A stretch of DNA of 64,000 nt from contig PSPT01000008.1 in NCBI GenBank assembly GCA_004195635.1, forward strand, positions 1 through 64,000. The letters run 5' to 3'. The first letter of the stretch is position 1, and each line of letters begins with the position of its first letter. Below, piece after piece: positions 5,060-34,085 of the stretch. Source of the DNA: Methanobacteriota archaeon. Its GTDB lineage: Archaea; Thermoplasmatota; Poseidoniia; Poseidoniales; Poseidoniaceae. The notes under the pieces were generated by a model, which was given only the letters and a program-made list of their open reading frames with translations, was not told where the DNA came from and did not search any database. A program made the translations under genes and the position numbers.

Positions 5060-6400
5060 ATGGGCTGGTTGGGTCTTGATGATACCGACGGGCTTTCCGG
5101 AGGTTGCACTACTCATACCTTCCATAAGTTGATCTCTTTGCTTGCAAAGGATACCAATGCTATTGGTGAGGATTGGAAGTGGAGAGTATCTACCAACCCG
5201 CGTCTTGTGCGGCTATGGCCGTTTGCTGAGCGCCGCACGAGGGGAAATGCTGCAGTTGCTTGCGAGATTATTCTTTTTGGCGAGGAAGATGATGTAATTG
5301 ATGAAGGAAGAATTGATGAATCTGAAACTGCCCTTCTCAAGCGACTAGATGAATTGTGGGCGGAGCTTGTATTGGCTGATGCTGAACGTCATGGAAGCGC
5401 ATCTGAGAGCCATCATGATCAACGACAACAATCGGAGGCTTCACCTGGAATGGTTTGGTTGAAGCAAGATATTGACAACAAAATATACACAATGGCTGTA
5501 AGAGGGGAAGTAAAGTTAACTGAGATTATGGAGTTTGTTGATGATAAAATCAATGCCTCTGGAGGGAAAGTATGGAAAGACAACGATGGTCACGGCTGCA
5601 TTGGTGCTTTGGCTGCTATTTCGTGGAATGGATTGATTGACCATACTTGGGAAGCAATAGCCTATAGGCTTGAGAAAAATATAGGAACTCTTCGTTTCAT
5701 AAATAACCAAAAAGTCATTCAGTTGACCACTAAATACCCCGACACATTTGTTAATCGCGACCCAACGATTGACCGCTCTTTGATTTCACCTAGGACGCCC
5801 TGTCCGGTATTGTTTGGGATTCGGGCTGAAACCAGAGATGCTGCTGAATCAGCAGCACACTGGTTATTGAAAGACAGGAATAGTGAGAATGCTAGTAGCA
5901 TGCGTGTATGGCAAACGAATCAAGCGACAAATGATCATTTATTTCACAGATACAAAGGAGATTTAGTAGAAAAGCCACAAATCATCAAGGGCGGGCATGC
6001 AATAATTGAATTGGAAAACGGCCTAAAAGCAATTGCATTTTCGCAAAGCGGTGATATCAATAGGGTAATTCAAATGCTTCTTTCTGGTGATGAAGTGGAA
6101 TTTTACGGAATAATCCCTAAGGGAGAAAATATAGTGCACCTAGAGAGATTTATCTTCAAGGCACCATCGCCAAAACGCCATCTACGCCCACTGTGTGATT
6201 GTGGGAGCAGATTTACCTCAAAGGGAAAAGGGCAGCAATTAAAGTGCCCTAATTGCAAGGAGAAAACCTTTGACCATTGGGTAGAATCGCCCCTTCCCGC
6301 TCAACTTGCCCCATTGCTTGGAGTTTGGCTTGAGCCACCTGCATCAGCAAGAAGACATCTTGCCGCCCCATTATCGCGATTACACCCTGATCTCCCTTGA
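5060..6400 (+). CDS. tiaS: tRNA(Ile2) 2-agmatinylcytidine synthetase
   Basis: TiaS attaches agmatine to C34 of tRNA-Ile(CAU) using ATP so that it reads AUA, a modification specific to archaea. The N-terminus GWLGLDDTDGLSGGCTTHTF is the family signature. The C-terminus carries a zinc ribbon, CDCGSRF followed by CPNC (about residues 377-405), used for tRNA acceptor-stem binding. An OB-fold-like region precedes it. At 446 residues it matches the family length. The ATG follows the gmhB stop without a gap, so it is probably cotranscribed with gmhAB although unrelated in function. Confidence 0.9.
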   Translation: MGWLGLDDTDGLSGGCTTHTFHKLISLLAKDTNAIGEDWKWRVSTNPRLVRLWPFAERRTRGNAAVACEIILFGEEDDVIDEGRIDESETALLKRLDELWAELVLADAERHGSASESHHDQRQQSEASPGMVWLKQDIDNKIYTMAVRGEVKLTEIMEFVDDKINASGGKVWKDNDGHGCIGALAAISWNGLIDHTWEAIAYRLEKNIGTLRFINNQKVIQLTTKYPDTFVNRDPTIDRSLISPRTPCPVLFGIRAETRDAAESAAHWLLKDRNSENASSMRVWQTNQATNDHLFHRYKGDLVEKPQIIKGGHAIIELENGLKAIAFSQSGDINRVIQMLLSGDEVEFYGIIPKGENIVHLERFIFKAPSPKRHLRPLCDCGSRFTSKGKGQQLKCPNCKEKTFDHWVESPLPAQLAPLLGVWLEPPASARRHLAAPLSRLHPDLP

Positions 6401-6529
6401 GTGGGCATCTTTCATTCACAACACAACAGATTGAGCCTGTATTTCTGAGAATAATTCATACTATCTAATTAGAAAATTGATGTACTTCTTAGGCAAATCA
6501 TCAATAATCAACTCCCTCTCCGAAGGGCT

Positions 6530-6796
6530 ATGAGTGAATCTGTAAATGACTATGCGTCTTACATTACTTATGCGCTACTGATAATCGCATTTGCTTTTGC
6601 CGTGTGGTTTATTATTAAGAAAGGAAAAGAAAATGTAGCTGCCGCTAAAGAAGATGCTGCGCCCAAGGTTGCTGGTCAAGATTCACTTGAAGGCGGAGCA
6701 CAAAATCCTGAAAAATTTGACGATCCTGATGATGATGCTCTTGATGAAATGGGCGCATTACTCGGTGAGGAAGATGACCAAGTGGACGAAGACTGA
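6530..6796 (+). CDS. small single-span membrane protein with acidic tail
   Basis: The 88-residue product has a short N-terminus, one membrane helix (about residues 10-30, ITYALLIIAFAFAVWFIIKK) and a cytoplasmic tail that becomes very acidic at the end (DDPDDDALDEMGALLGEEDDQVDED). The Lys pair after the helix predicts an inside tail. A GAAGGG ribosome binding site precedes the ATG. No domain is recognised. It is convergent with the degenerate RecA-like gene; the 116 bp between them shows no further gene. Confidence 0.6.
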   Translation: MSESVNDYASYITYALLIIAFAFAVWFIIKKGKENVAAAKEDAAPKVAGQDSLEGGAQNPEKFDDPDDDALDEMGALLGEEDDQVDED

Positions 6797-6912
6797 GGGT
6801 TGGCAGGAGATTTGCCCCCAACAATACTGCTTCCACTACTTCGGCGACTCACCTTTCCCCCGAAGACTTGAGGGTGAAAAGAGCCAACTTCAATCCTGCG
6901 TCTTTTGAAATA

Positions 6913-7512
6913 TCAAATGAAACCATTGGATTCTAAATTGAAATGGAATTGTTTTTTTGTTGTATCTAAGCATCTTTCATTCCCATCTTGCTGACGTAGA
7001 AGATGCCAAGTTTCTACCCCTGTGTCAACCAAACGACTTCCACCTCGCACCTTCATCTCAATGCCTGCATCTGGAGATTCATATGATTTGGAAATAATTA
7101 CTATGCTGCAGGAGTCGCTTCCGTGATTTAGTACTTCAGTTACCATGTCTATATTTTCTCTTGGCGCTTGACCCTCTGATGGAGCCCAGTCATCGATTAC
7201 AATTAATTGAACTCTTGGCAATGTATCCTTGGCATTTACAATTTGCATTGAAATATGCTTAAGGTTATCGTCGAATTGAAGGGCATGGAAACGGCTACTA
7301 GCAATCAGATCAACATCAGAGAACAATTGTTGAAAACGAACAGAATCAGGCATTTCGGGAGTTGCCCAAAGAACTCTACCACCCGAAAGTAACACTTCAC
7401 GAGAATACTGGAGAGCGAGCGTCGTGCCTCCGATACTACCGGAGACTGATAGATGTACCTTGTCAGGAAGTGGTGGTAAGAGCGAAACAACCCTCTCGGA
7501 AACCTCCTTCAT
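6913..7512 (-). CDS. RecA/RadB-like ATPase-fold protein with degenerate P-loop
   Basis: The 199-residue product follows the RecA core: strand and loop LSVSGSIGGTTLALQY where the Walker A motif belongs, then a helix and strand GGRVLWATPEMPDSVRFQQ, and Walker B-like VQLIVIDDW (about residues 99-107). The P-loop lysine is absent (GSIGGTT), so ATP hydrolysis is doubtful. Archaeal RadB and KaiC-like proteins share this order of elements. It may be a non-catalytic recombination mediator or regulator. The start is ATG 7512. Confidence 0.5.
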   Translation of the reverse strand: MKEVSERVVSLLPPLPDKVHLSVSGSIGGTTLALQYSREVLLSGGRVLWATPEMPDSVRFQQLFSDVDLIASSRFHALQFDDNLKHISMQIVNAKDTLPRVQLIVIDDWAPSEGQAPRENIDMVTEVLNHGSDSCSIVIISKSYESPDAGIEMKVRGGSRLVDTGVETWHLLRQQDGNERCLDTTKKQFHFNLESNGFI

Positions 7513-28473: not shown

Positions 28474-28558
28474 TATACCGCCAATTACGCCTAACGGTAT
28501 TCCTTGATGAAGGTGGCGGAATAGTTGGATTGAAGTTAAGTTGCTGCGTGGGAGAATC

Positions 28559-28891
28559 ATGACCGAACCAACTATTGATGAGTTCATCCGCCATTTGCAA
28601 GTAAAACTCGACAACCCTGAGTCAAATAACGATAGTGAAGAATTGAAGCGAACACAAAGGCAATTGGATGGAGCGATTAACCTAGCCATTTCATTTAGAG
28701 ATAGGCACGCTAAATTGCTGGCTGCTGGAGAAAAGGAATTTGAAATTCAGCAGAATGTACGCATTTTGGCCGACAAAGTTCAGAGCGAAATAGTTTCAAG
28801 CGGGGATTCTCTTTCAGATATCTGCAGTTCATGCTCTGCAATACTTGAAACAGACTTGGACTTCTGCCCAGCATGTGGGACAAAAAAATAA
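28559..28891 (+). CDS. small zinc-ribbon protein with helical N-terminus
   Basis: The 110-residue product starts at ATG 28559 after GGGAGA. Residues 1-80 are predicted helical and charged. The end is a C4 zinc ribbon, ICSSCSAILETDLDFCPACG. Such double-CxxC tails occur in many archaeal regulatory or scaffold proteins. It diverges from IPK and converges on the MamK-like actin gene with 39 bp between. Function unknown. Confidence 0.65.
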   Translation: MTEPTIDEFIRHLQVKLDNPESNNDSEELKRTQRQLDGAINLAISFRDRHAKLLAAGEKEFEIQQNVRILADKVQSEIVSSGDSLSDICSSCSAILETDLDFCPACGTKK

Positions 28892-28930: not shown

Positions 28931-29956
28931 TCAGCGAGAAGCAAGAGTCAAATTAGCCCACATTTCTTCAGGTACTTCCATTGCTAATCTTAGGCCGCCC
29001 ATGGCGCCGAGATGAATAGGAGCGTCTACAGTGTGTACTTCAACATCTCCAAGGTCAGAGAGGCGGCGCTCAATTAGCGCACCGAGTCCATTGATTCCGG
29101 AACCGCCACCTGCAAGAATTAGATTTCGGCGGAAGGCATCGTGGTATTCTGGGTTTGAGGCGGAAATCAATTTTTTAACGTTCTCAACGATTGGGTCAAC
29201 GATGCTTTCGCATGCACGTTGTATACAGTCGGTGATGTCCAAGGTCATTGCCTTTCCTTCAACTGAGAAATCAACCATTACAGGTGAATCAGGAGCAGAG
29301 GCCGAGGTGAACGAAAATTGCTCCTTCCAGCGACGAGCCATGTCCTTAGTAATTTGTGCGCCGGCATATTTGAGTTGGACTTCCCTTATGATTTGCGCAT
29401 CAATATGATCTCCAGCAAAGGAGGTGTGGACTTGGTCCTCAGGTTGTGGGACAGTACCATAGACGCGACAAAGATCAGTAGTTCCTGCTCCAATGTCAAT
29501 GACCAAAGAATGATCAAGCATATCCAAAGAATAGGCAACCGCGAAAGGTTCTGAAATAATCATGCAGGCATTTACACTTCCTGCTGCTGCATCAAAGATA
29601 GCAGTCTTGTCAACATAACTAGCTTCTGCTGGTGCTCCAATTACTGCGACAACTCTGCCATAATCTTCGGGGTCAGCAAGGCTCATGATATGGGTGATGA
29701 AATCCGCAATATACTTCTTGTCCTCCGCATTATCTTTAATCACTCCATGCTCAAGAGGGCGAAATAAATTCAAAGCGAGGCGATTCTTCAAAGCATCCTC
29801 GCCAAATAGAACATCACGACGCAAGAAATTTCGCGCAATAACATCTTTTGGTGTTCCAATGACTGTCAACACTTCTTCCTCTTGTCCAGCACTGGATACC
29901 ATTACACTTCTAAAAGTCCCAAGGTCAACTCCAATGTACAATACGTCATCACTCAT
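28931..29956 (-). CDS. MamK-like bacterial-type actin
   Basis: This 341-residue actin-fold ATPase has phosphate-1 loop IGVDLGTFRSVMVSS, phosphate-2 loop SLVIDIGAGTTDLCRVYGTV and adenosine motif LILAGGGSGINGLG. Beyond these shared motifs it keeps stretches that I recall from the magnetosome filament protein MamK: GTPKDVIARNFL, VVAVIGAPAEAS, GTVPQPEDQV, KEQFSF, NPEYHDAF and GLRLAEEL-type GLRLAMEVPEEMWANL. The homology is from memory, not computed. ATG 29956 (MSDDVLYIG) fits the family start. In-frame upstream codons to 30037 would add a hydrophobic stretch (LMSLLLIFVVCLI) and, if used, a membrane anchor. Likely a cytoskeletal filament. Confidence 0.85.
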   Translation of the reverse strand: MSDDVLYIGVDLGTFRSVMVSSAGQEEEVLTVIGTPKDVIARNFLRRDVLFGEDALKNRLALNLFRPLEHGVIKDNAEDKKYIADFITHIMSLADPEDYGRVVAVIGAPAEASYVDKTAIFDAAAGSVNACMIISEPFAVAYSLDMLDHSLVIDIGAGTTDLCRVYGTVPQPEDQVHTSFAGDHIDAQIIREVQLKYAGAQITKDMARRWKEQFSFTSASAPDSPVMVDFSVEGKAMTLDITDCIQRACESIVDPIVENVKKLISASNPEYHDAFRRNLILAGGGSGINGLGALIERRLSDLGDVEVHTVDAPIHLGAMGGLRLAMEVPEEMWANLTLASR

Positions 29957-30175: not shown

Positions 30176-30187
30176 GTATTTACTTAC
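30172..30187. terminator. inverted repeat at end of double-zinc-ribbon gene
   Basis: GTAAGTA (30172-30178) and TACTTAC (30181-30187) are perfect inverted copies separated by TT. The repeat covers the stop codon of the minus-strand gene ending at 30184 and the stop of the small plus-strand frame. It could be a weak bidirectional terminator or a protein-binding palindrome. Confidence 0.3.
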
Positions 30188-31191
30188 AACCACTCCTCGC
30201 AGGGCTGACAATACCATGCATTATATTCGGGGTAGAGTCGACCCATTTCACTACAATTGGGACACTCTTTGAGGACATTCTCACCCATCATACTCATTAC
30301 CATGTGGACATGCACATGGTCCTCAATTCCAAGATGTTGACGCATAGCCCAAAGCATTTGATCCTCGCTGGGCGAAATAATTCCATCCTCTAATACTATT
30401 TCTAATGCCGCACGATAATCCTGTATCATTGTTAAATCACGTGGGTCAAGGCTGACTCCGCCCTTTTCGTAAATAATATCTCGACCACCAGGGTCATCGA
30501 CAAATAAGACCAATGAAGCAGCTTGATATTCATCACTTCGCATTTCAAACGAAATTGTTGTGCCTTCAAGATTAGCAAAAACTAATTGTGAATGGCGATT
30601 AATCACACTGGCGATGCTGCGGGCAGTATCTTCAGCCGAGCGGCCTCGTCGCCAACCGGTTTCAGATGCCTCGTCAAAGATATAGAATTCAGTACCTACG
30701 CCGGGATATTCGAGTCTAATTTCCTCGCCTCCATCAAAACCATTTGCAACTATGGTCAATGAAGCAACTGTGGTGTTGACGAGGTTATCATCCTCATCAA
30801 AAGAGATCATTAAGGGCTTACGTTCTTCTGTTGCAACATTGAAATGGCCCTGCATTCCATCCATCCATTTTGATTCCAAACGATGTAAACTTTCTTCTTG
30901 AGCAGAATTTAATTTCTTATCTATGCCCAAAATGCCCTTGAGATGTCCATCTTCCATTTCCTGATTAAACTCGCTAATTAGCTCGGCATCACGGCGATGT
31001 GTAGGTGGAGGTCCAGATCTTTTTGATGAAGCTTCTGGGTCAGGCCATTCATAAGAACACTTTACGCATTGCAAATAATCGGGAATTGATGAGGGTTGAC
31101 TATCACTCCGGCAACGGGGGCAATCTCCCTCTTCGTCAACAGACAAATTTTCCTGCGCTTCTTCTCTTCCTCGGCGGATTCCAAGCCCCAT
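30184..31191 (-). CDS. double zinc-ribbon protein with possible TerB-like domain
   Basis: The 335-residue product has an N-terminal C4 ribbon (CPRCRSDSQPSSIPDYLQCVKC, residues about 24-45 with two CxxC pairs) and a C-terminal one (CPNC and CQPC). Between them are a charged helical part, a beta-rich part (residues about 130-250) and a helical hairpin YRAALEIVLEDGIISPSEDQ. That hairpin resembles the acidic helix pair of TerB or EF-hand-like domains. No family is firmly recognised. It lies upstream of the MamK-like actin on the same strand, 227 bp away, and could work with it. Confidence 0.6.
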   Translation of the reverse strand: MGLGIRRGREEAQENLSVDEEGDCPRCRSDSQPSSIPDYLQCVKCSYEWPDPEASSKRSGPPPTHRRDAELISEFNQEMEDGHLKGILGIDKKLNSAQEESLHRLESKWMDGMQGHFNVATEERKPLMISFDEDDNLVNTTVASLTIVANGFDGGEEIRLEYPGVGTEFYIFDEASETGWRRGRSAEDTARSIASVINRHSQLVFANLEGTTISFEMRSDEYQAASLVLFVDDPGGRDIIYEKGGVSLDPRDLTMIQDYRAALEIVLEDGIISPSEDQMLWAMRQHLGIEDHVHVHMVMSMMGENVLKECPNCSEMGRLYPEYNAWYCQPCEEWL

Positions 31192-31280: not shown

Positions 31281-32417
31281 TCACAACTTGCGCAAAACTG
31301 TAGCAATTCCCATGCCCCCGCCGATGCACATGGTAGACAAGCCGTATTCTCCACCGGTTCTTTGCAGGAGTGAGGCGGTTTTTCCTGTGATTCGACAACC
31401 GCTTGCTCCTAGTGGGTGGCCAATTGCTAATGCGCCGCCGTCAATATTGAGTCGGGGGTCTTCAGGTTCAATCGCGAGGTCTTTACAGACGGCAAGAGAC
31501 TGGCTTGAAAATGCCTCATTTAACTCAATTACATCCATGTCATCAAGATTCAGTCCTGCGCGCAGAAGGGCTTTTTGTGTAGCCGGGACTGGCCCTATTC
31601 CCATTATATCAGGATCTACACCTGCAATTGCGGTTGAAAGTATCTCGGCATGCGGGTTAAGGTTGTTTTCTGCAGCATATTTATCGCTTGACACCAAAGC
31701 AAACGCAGCACCATCAGTAAGTGGTGAGGATGTTGCCGCTGTTACACTACCGGTTTCCAAAAAAGCCGGTTTCAGAGTAGCCATTTTTTCCAAATTAGGC
31801 GAGCGCATACATCCATCAGCAGCTACTTGGCCATTGGGAGTATCTATTGAAACGATTTCTGCCGATAAATGGCCTTTATTTTGAGCAGCAATAGCCTTGG
31901 TGTGACTATTGAAAGCAAACAATTCTTGGGTATCTCGAGAAATGTTATGCGAGGTAGCCAGATTTTCGGCAGTAATGCCCATATTAATATAGGCTTGAGG
32001 AAATGATTCTTCTATGCCAGAGTGAAGGTCTCTAGTCCAACCTCCACGTTGAACCAAGGACATTGTCTCAACTCCGCCGCAAAGAAACACATCGCCGCTA
32101 CCCATTGAAATTGAACCTGCGGCTGTATGAATTACTTGCATGGAAGAACCACATAATCGGTTTGTGGTGGCACCGGGTACTGAAGTAGGTAGCCCGGAAA
32201 GATAGGTGGTAATTCGCCCGAGATTGAGACCCTGCACTCCCTCTGGATATGCGCAACCAAGAAGCAAATCTTCGATGTCGGAACCAGGCACTCCAGTTTT
32301 TGCTAGAACGGCTTTTGCCGCAGTAGATGCGAGGTCTTCGGGGCGGACATCCTTTAGAGCACCCCTGTGAGCACGGTGAAATGATGTCCTACTATAGCCC
32401 GAAATAACCGCTGCCAT
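31281..32417 (-). CDS. acetyl-CoA C-acyltransferase (thiolase)
   Basis: This thiolase makes or cleaves acetoacetyl/3-ketoacyl-CoA. It has the acyl-accepting Cys in TNRLCGSSMQVIH (about residue 88), the His motif GGALAIGHPLGASG and the second active Cys in STMCIGGGMG. ATG 32417 (MAAVISGYSRTSF) gives 378 residues. It resembles beta-oxidation-type thiolases (FadA/PaaJ-like) rather than the archaeal acetoacetyl-CoA thiolase that pairs with HMG-CoA synthase, so fatty-acid breakdown is the likelier role. Divergent from kptA. Confidence 0.9.
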   Translation of the reverse strand: MAAVISGYSRTSFHRAHRGALKDVRPEDLASTAAKAVLAKTGVPGSDIEDLLLGCAYPEGVQGLNLGRITTYLSGLPTSVPGATTNRLCGSSMQVIHTAAGSISMGSGDVFLCGGVETMSLVQRGGWTRDLHSGIEESFPQAYINMGITAENLATSHNISRDTQELFAFNSHTKAIAAQNKGHLSAEIVSIDTPNGQVAADGCMRSPNLEKMATLKPAFLETGSVTAATSSPLTDGAAFALVSSDKYAAENNLNPHAEILSTAIAGVDPDIMGIGPVPATQKALLRAGLNLDDMDVIELNEAFSSQSLAVCKDLAIEPEDPRLNIDGGALAIGHPLGASGCRITGKTASLLQRTGGEYGLSTMCIGGGMGIATVLRKL

Positions 32418-32519
32418 GAACCTGCCAAACATACTTCCCCAATGAGAGTTCCCCAAACAAAATCACTCTCTCATACAGAACGGGTTATGAAGGGGTGGGC
32501 GGTCGGCGAGGTGTTATTC

Positions 32520-33395: not shown

Positions 33396-34085
33396 CTATT
33401 CTTCCTCATATTTTTTACTTGAGAGTGGAGATGTGAAGTCGCCATTAAGTCCAGCCATTCTCTCAGCAGTTTCGGAGAGAACCAAAGGACGCATGCAGTG
33501 GGGGCAATTGTCATCAGGAGTAAGTAACATAGGAATTATCGCAAGAGTAGATTCGCAGTGGGGGCAAGAGGCAATCATTTCCCCTTCCTTTAATTGCGAT
33601 TGATTTGGTAAATTCATACCCTGTCCTGAATACCAAGCGCGGAAAAGTGGATGCTTGAGCAATAATAAGCGCTTGAAACTCGACCAAGCCATGAATAACA
33701 TGAGTACCCCAAGTATTAATCCTGTGCCTCCTGATGTAATTGTTAGAACTGAGAAGAGCAAGAAGAGCAAACTGGCAATGGTGAATGTGGCAATAACAAA
33801 AGGTAGGGCGAATGGCCGCTTTCGGCGAAATGAACCCCATAAAAAAGCAGCAATTGCAGAGGGTAGTATTGTTAAATAACTAGCAACTGGGTCGATGAAA
33901 CTCAAAATACTCCATGTGAGGAACAATAGCATTACCAATGCACCGGCTAAAACCACAATAGTTTGTCGATGAGCATTCTCCAATGGATGGTTTGAACGCC
34001 CTGGGACTGAGCCGGCGAGCACCATGCCTCCTTTGTCGCCCATGCTTGGGGCCGGAGGTATTGGTTGAAAAACTAACACCTCCAC
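33396..34085 (-). CDS. membrane protein with C-terminal zinc ribbon
   Basis: The product of up to 229 residues has four hydrophobic helices between about residues 42 and 140 and a cytoplasmic C4 zinc ribbon, SCPHCESTLAIIPMLLTP followed by NCPHCMRPL. The charged linker LPNQSQLKEGEMIA joins them. The start is unsure: GTG 34085, ATG 34043 or ATG 34025. No family is recognised. It converges with kptA and diverges from coaBC. Confidence 0.6.
   Translation of the reverse strand: MEVLVFQPIPPAPSMGDKGGMVLAGSVPGRSNHPLENAHRQTIVVLAGALVMLLFLTWSILSFIDPVASYLTILPSAIAAFLWGSFRRKRPFALPFVIATFTIASLLFLLFSVLTITSGGTGLILGVLMLFMAWSSFKRLLLLKHPLFRAWYSGQGMNLPNQSQLKEGEMIASCPHCESTLAIIPMLLTPDDNCPHCMRPLVLSETAERMAGLNGDFTSPLSSKKYEEE

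Follow-up and report, generated by a model that had tools for sequence, protein, structure and literature searches.

The genes under study lie in a 64,000-nucleotide stretch of contig PSPT01000008.1 (the window), part of a draft genome (G000) of the order Poseidoniales that comprises 1.75 Mb in 31 contigs and is 80% complete. The source had been suspected from its letters to be a marine planktonic archaeon, which was borne out: where relatives share this locus, they bear the names Poseidonia, Poseidoniaceae or Thalassarchaeaceae. The central gene, A, is surrounded by archaeal housekeeping genes, and a paralog, B, that was overlooked by the preliminary description is located elsewhere in the genome. 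The features are as follows.

28541..28891, plus strand: small zinc-ribbon protein (cluster 13) that adjoins A in this genus only
28931..29956, minus strand: MamK-like actin A, 341 amino acids from ATG, an actin-fold ATPase
30184..31191, minus strand: TerB-like/zinc-ribbon partner of 335 amino acids, lying immediately upstream of A in the same orientation and co-distributed with it
31281..32456, minus strand: thiolase-like gene, a conserved flank of the A cassette that is kept in genomes without the cassette and is outside the module proposed below
33396..34085, minus strand: zinc-ribbon membrane protein family (cluster 10), a flank that is also outside the module
G000, contig C24, 38919-39905, strand not given: actin B, MamK-like paralog unlinked to A (MamK model, 330 bits)

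In most relatives the cluster 10 gene borders the A cassette at the end opposite the thiolase-like gene; in this genus it has moved. The cluster 13 gene owes its position beside A to rearrangement: elsewhere it remains linked to the isopentenyl phosphate kinase gene, whether or not the genome has A. The coordinates of A had been given correctly, with omission of the minus strand; an alternative TTG start is located 27 codons upstream of the ATG. The translation contains every one of the MamK-like segments that had been named, each aligned with its counterpart in MamK of strain AMB-1 (PDB 5ljv): PKDVIA with PKDVIG, IGAPAEAS with IGVPARAS, GTVPQPEDQV with GTVPGPEDQV, KEQFSF with KEQFSF, and GLRLAMEVPEEMWANL with ALRLAEELPPQYWRQL. 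The MamK ATPase residues D17, T20, E143, D161, G163-T166 and GGG/S288-291 are all kept in A. Among 18 A and 19 B sequences, E143, D161 and the nucleotide loops are invariant except that G290 is serine in two of the 19 B proteins. Comparison of two species of the genus yielded a dN/dS value of 0.03 for A, indicating strong purifying selection, and values for A, B, the TerB/zinc gene and the coiled-coil gene described below were 0.030-0.037 (0.03-0.04 when rounded). In one single-contig genome (G011:C1:1175447-1176441) actin A is split into two frames, as a pseudogene or by sequencing error.

The relationship of A to known actins was assessed with family profiles, sequences of solved structures and a predicted fold. 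MamK was the best-scoring NCBIfam model with 361 bits, a lead of 140 bits over BeeR (218 bits), followed by MreB (90 bits), salactin (64 bits) and volactin (29 bits). The match to the MamK model (NF040964) extends over the full length (positions 1-331 of 335), although the score is below the curated cut-off of 400 bits that B, with 330 bits, also does not reach. The equivalog models of MreB (cut-off 293 bits), salactin (400 bits) and BeeR (530 bits) were failed by A, and for MreB only the broad Pfam MreB_Mbl model was passed (89 bits); the Pfam Salactin model also was passed with 57 bits against a cut-off of 27. A third MreB_Mbl match in the genome is, in our reading of its sequence, probably DnaK. 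In phmmer searches of PDB sequences, A matched MamK with an E value of 2e-71, BeeR with 1e-45 and MreB with 5e-14. Thus, the likeness between A and MamK is far beyond chance. The AlphaFold model of A (pLDDT 90, pTM 0.86) was matched first by the MamK filament subunit 5ljv (TM 0.89), then by BeeR (0.81) and MreB (0.78). Identity is 36-38% with alphaproteobacterial magnetosome MamK and up to 48% with other bacterial MamK-like proteins. The column of the polymerization-blocking A278D mutation of MamK (5ljw) was considered as a clue: it holds D, N or E in A proteins and usually P in B proteins. It was uninformative, as 10 of 16 other bacterial relatives and Thermotoga MreB likewise have an acidic residue there. 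The MamK cut-off was passed by one Nitrospinota contig and by L082, an archaeal-looking contig on which the actin lies beside an archaeal Kae1 gene. The L082 contig is titled Thermoplasmata archaeon; its actin (5905-7002) scores 435 bits and is followed by a 618-amino acid protein with long charged helices.

These affinities were mirrored in phylogeny. A single IQ-TREE tree of 61 rows, with loci drawn from the best 80 of 382, gave support of 100/100 for A, 98/97 for B and 98/99 for bacterial MamK and MamK-like proteins, with the alphaproteobacterial magnetosome MamK inside the bacterial group. The A, B and bacterial MamK proteins split from BeeR and MreB at 93/80, with long outgroup branches. 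A single clade of A and B was not rejected (AU p 0.116), and the tree, which is rooted on long branches, leaves both a sister relationship of A and B, which are 46% identical, and a closer placement of A to bacterial MamK. The contig L127 (JAOMAZ010000019.1) is titled Deltaproteobacteria, but is mislabeled or contaminated as its actin falls inside clade A and the gene order around it is that of the Poseidoniales A locus. The family models, PDB sequences, fold and tree together place A closest to MamK and apart from MreB, BeeR, salactin, FtsA, DnaK and ParM. Judged from sequence, A is a relative within the MamK family rather than a transferred magnetosome gene, because it scores below the MamK cut-off and the A and B clades lie beside, not inside, bacterial MamK. 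The preliminary recognition of a MamK relative therefore stands, with the addition that A is no lone filament gene but part of a co-inherited module.

The distribution of the actins was examined in 35 Poseidoniaceae and 24 Thalassarchaeaceae drafts of 68-97% completeness, the family labels being our own assignments for which the archaellum pattern was among the grounds. Both A and B were found in 28 of the 35 Poseidoniaceae genomes, some copies being fragmentary. Five genomes possess only one of the two, which may reflect incompleteness, and the two that lack both are 71 and 78% complete. Among 390 genomes of the phylum, all matches with E < 1e-40 are in Poseidoniales except for one in G124; this genome measures 5 Mb and has 7% contamination, and its match scores the same as L082.

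Survey of the same neighborhood in related genomes revealed that the TerB/zinc gene adjoins A in nearly all loci. Of 19 loci compared, 18 have it immediately before A in the same orientation, and in 44 named loci the two are no more than 6 kb apart. The protein has zinc ribbons at the N- and C-termini and a TerB-like stretch; the Pfam TerB match is weak, reaching only E 0.04 in a relative, and neither this protein nor the coiled-coil partner scores above the cut-off of any Pfam family. Its structural model had a mean pLDDT of 70 with weak fold matches. In ten genomes without the cassette, the TerB/zinc gene and A are both missing while the flanking order is kept on at least one side, and on both sides in nine. 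The retained flanks are EF-2, IDI/GGPPS, IPK, Tpt1-like and thiolase genes on one side, and zinc-ribbon membrane protein, CoaBC and ProRS genes on the other; the zinc-ribbon membrane gene also is missing in two of the ten.

At the B locus a subtilase gene precedes B in 18 of 19 loci, and a coiled-coil gene follows B in 17; genus g5 has its coiled-coil gene elsewhere, not adjoining B. The coiled-coil protein comprises 385-438 amino acids with a nearly invariant block, GPRSVSAEHDYLVEQIEELKRRLLERNREYEALRRRERRLHNDVFERDER, in the C-terminal half. In all eight actin-less loci inspected, the subtilase gene and B are missing between L18a/LX and GGGP synthase (the L156 contig stops short of the latter), and a remnant of the coiled-coil gene persists as an ORF of 140-166 amino acids that matches model positions 16-166 only. 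These N-terminal-only ORFs, with strands not given, are located as follows.

L155, 9125-9592
L156, 7449-7943
L157, 8759-9253
L158, 9193-9687
L159, 6148-6570
L160, 8416-8916
L161, 8739-9224
L162, 9084-9509

As the remnants match N-terminal positions only, the C-terminal half accompanies the actins and the N-terminal half is of use without them. The subtilase has a signal-like N-terminus and a hydrophobic stretch at the C-terminal end, and could be a hitch-hiker at this locus. In the protein at L036:5717-8815 and its Poseidoniaceae homologs, a short tail after the hydrophobic stretch often bears a P-x-PF-like motif; this ending of the protein could be a membrane tether or chance.

The genes at these two separate loci are present or absent jointly. 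Of the 24 Thalassarchaeaceae genomes, five (G042, G043, G050, G054 and G057) have the complete set of A, B, TerB/zinc gene and full-length coiled-coil gene, and the other 19, with a mean completeness of 90%, have none of the four. Because these genomes are related, the number of independent events behind the counts is small, perhaps two or three. The A and B loci of Thalassarchaeaceae remain syntenic where the module genes are gone. G038 is devoid of all four genes although the two other members of its genus have the module; this may be a separate loss, but CoaBC was not found in G038 either, so assembly gaps are possible. Loss and gain fit the pattern at both loci alike. In the Poseidoniaceae, G007 (90% complete) has B and the coiled-coil gene and neither A nor the TerB/zinc gene; thus, the halves of the module may be separable. 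What is new here is the pairing of A and B in most Poseidoniaceae, their two gene neighborhoods and the co-inheritance in Thalassarchaeaceae.

Among known systems, MamK (NF040964; 5ljv, 5jyg) most resembles A in the full-length match, fold, ATPase residues and family-specific segments. MamK filaments place magnetosomes, and in many cases a further actin and adaptors of coiled-coil or acidic type take part (Mad28, MamK-like, Mad20/23/25/26, MamJ; PMC12748827). Desulfovibrio magneticus RS-1 employs MamK, Mad28 and coiled-coil Mad proteins; there MamK joins with Mad28 in heteropolymers, and Mad25 connects the parts (PMC12748827). Coiled-coil neighbors also were detected at several bacterial MamK-like loci by a home-made proxy; GC-rich loci contributed shadow ORFs, and the central ORF is not the actin in some loci. 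A differs from MamK in being ~37% identical, in the separate clades of A and B and their sub-threshold scores, and in having other partner genes. As had been noted for the window, no other magnetosome gene accompanies the actins: none was apparent around A or B, a search for MamE in the 80% complete genome found nothing, and the only CDF protein of the genome scores 188 bits against the MamM cut-off of 350. BeeR (8r2n, NF053558) is second in both family and fold comparisons, but is ~36% identical and is outside the MamK-A-B group on a long branch of its own. Salactin and volactin also are archaeal actins, but are poorly matched by A; salactin, which has been reported as nearest to MamK (PMC10746226), is found in Methanotecta and is not known from Poseidoniales. 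Crenactin is an archaeal actin whose filament regulator, Arcadin-2, is encoded next door (PMC7613921), but is absent among the matches listed in the family, PDB and fold searches of A; the coiled-coil and TerB/zinc partners fall in no Pfam family at its cut-off. No paper on Poseidoniales MamK-like actins or the A278D position was found in the open-licence literature, and Rinke and Tully reported no actin in these archaea.

We consider it probable that A belongs to a two-actin cytoskeletal module of Poseidoniales in which a putative A/B filament would be served by a coiled-coil adaptor and a TerB/zinc partner and would act on a cargo other than the magnetosome. A main role of A and B in cell shape or division, as for archaeal MreB or crenactin, is unlikely. 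Archaeal actin-family genes do tend to accompany elongated shape, and crenactin likewise has regulators encoded by neighboring genes (PMC7613921). However, MGII cells are coccoid, ~0.7 μm, and similar in shape in MGIIa and MGIIb (PMC6864105), so that rod shape is an improbable role. Tubulin-family genes, including copies of FtsZ length, are present in 59 of 59 genomes with or without the actins, which argues that division is independent of the module, and A matches MreB far less well than MamK.

That the filament positions the archaellum or an attachment apparatus is somewhat less likely still. All Poseidoniaceae genera have the actins as well as an archaellum (genome searches; PMC6461757), and in 27 genomes an ORF at a distance of 6-9 kb from the archaellins resembles a short part of the TerB-like stretch of the partner of A, but these matches are weak (E 1e-8 to 1e-3). 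Moreover, in Thalassarchaeaceae the actins occur without archaellin in genus g17 and archaellin without the actins in g14 and G038, and the association is not significant (Fisher p = 0.13). Thus, the cargo is not strictly the archaellum. Weak TerB-like matches of 50 amino acids also lie within ~3 kb of an ftsZ-family gene in at least 10 genomes, as counted among the ftsZ genes listed, and the stretch is possibly a shared adaptor domain of polymer systems. Short matches near archaellins or ftsZ were noted at L173:14442-14885 (G000:C6), G005:C130, G021:C17, G014:C2 and G025:C9, among others. Finally, mam genes are known to move between bacteria and the genome is a draft, but recent horizontal acquisition of a magnetosome mamK, or an artifact of metagenome binning, is refuted by the tree, in which the archaeal clades are outside bacterial MamK, and by the synteny of A among archaeal housekeeping genes in dozens of independent assemblies, leaving this reading with hardly any probability.

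Within the two-actin module, by analogy with MamK, A and B may polymerize on ATP, jointly or in parallel, into dynamic MamK-like filaments. The C-terminal half of the coiled-coil protein is a candidate for binding or organizing the filament, because this half is missing wherever the actins are missing, and the N-terminal half may hold an anchor or cargo, as it survives alone in the same place. The TerB/zinc protein would be a cofactor or adaptor of A itself. Working like the magnetoskeleton, the filament might position or segregate a cell structure other than the magnetosome. The fuller scheme, in which a MamK-type A/B heterofilament with these two accessory proteins organizes an unseen intracellular or surface structure and certain Thalassarchaeaceae lineages dropped the whole unit, is advanced more tentatively, at slightly under even chances.

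MamK has so far been studied as a magnetosome protein, yet two of its relatives are conserved in very abundant archaea of the surface ocean (Marine Group II) that are described as coccoid and are not known to make magnetosomes. Together with other non-magnetosome relatives, this suggests that the family serves generally to organize some component of the cell, magnetosomes being one example. For a putative cytoskeleton in uncultured archaea, the analysis names partner proteins and maps a candidate binding region, and the co-occurrence of the actins, the coiled-coil protein and the TerB/zinc partner suggests that these cells, which make no magnets, have an internal skeleton not described before.
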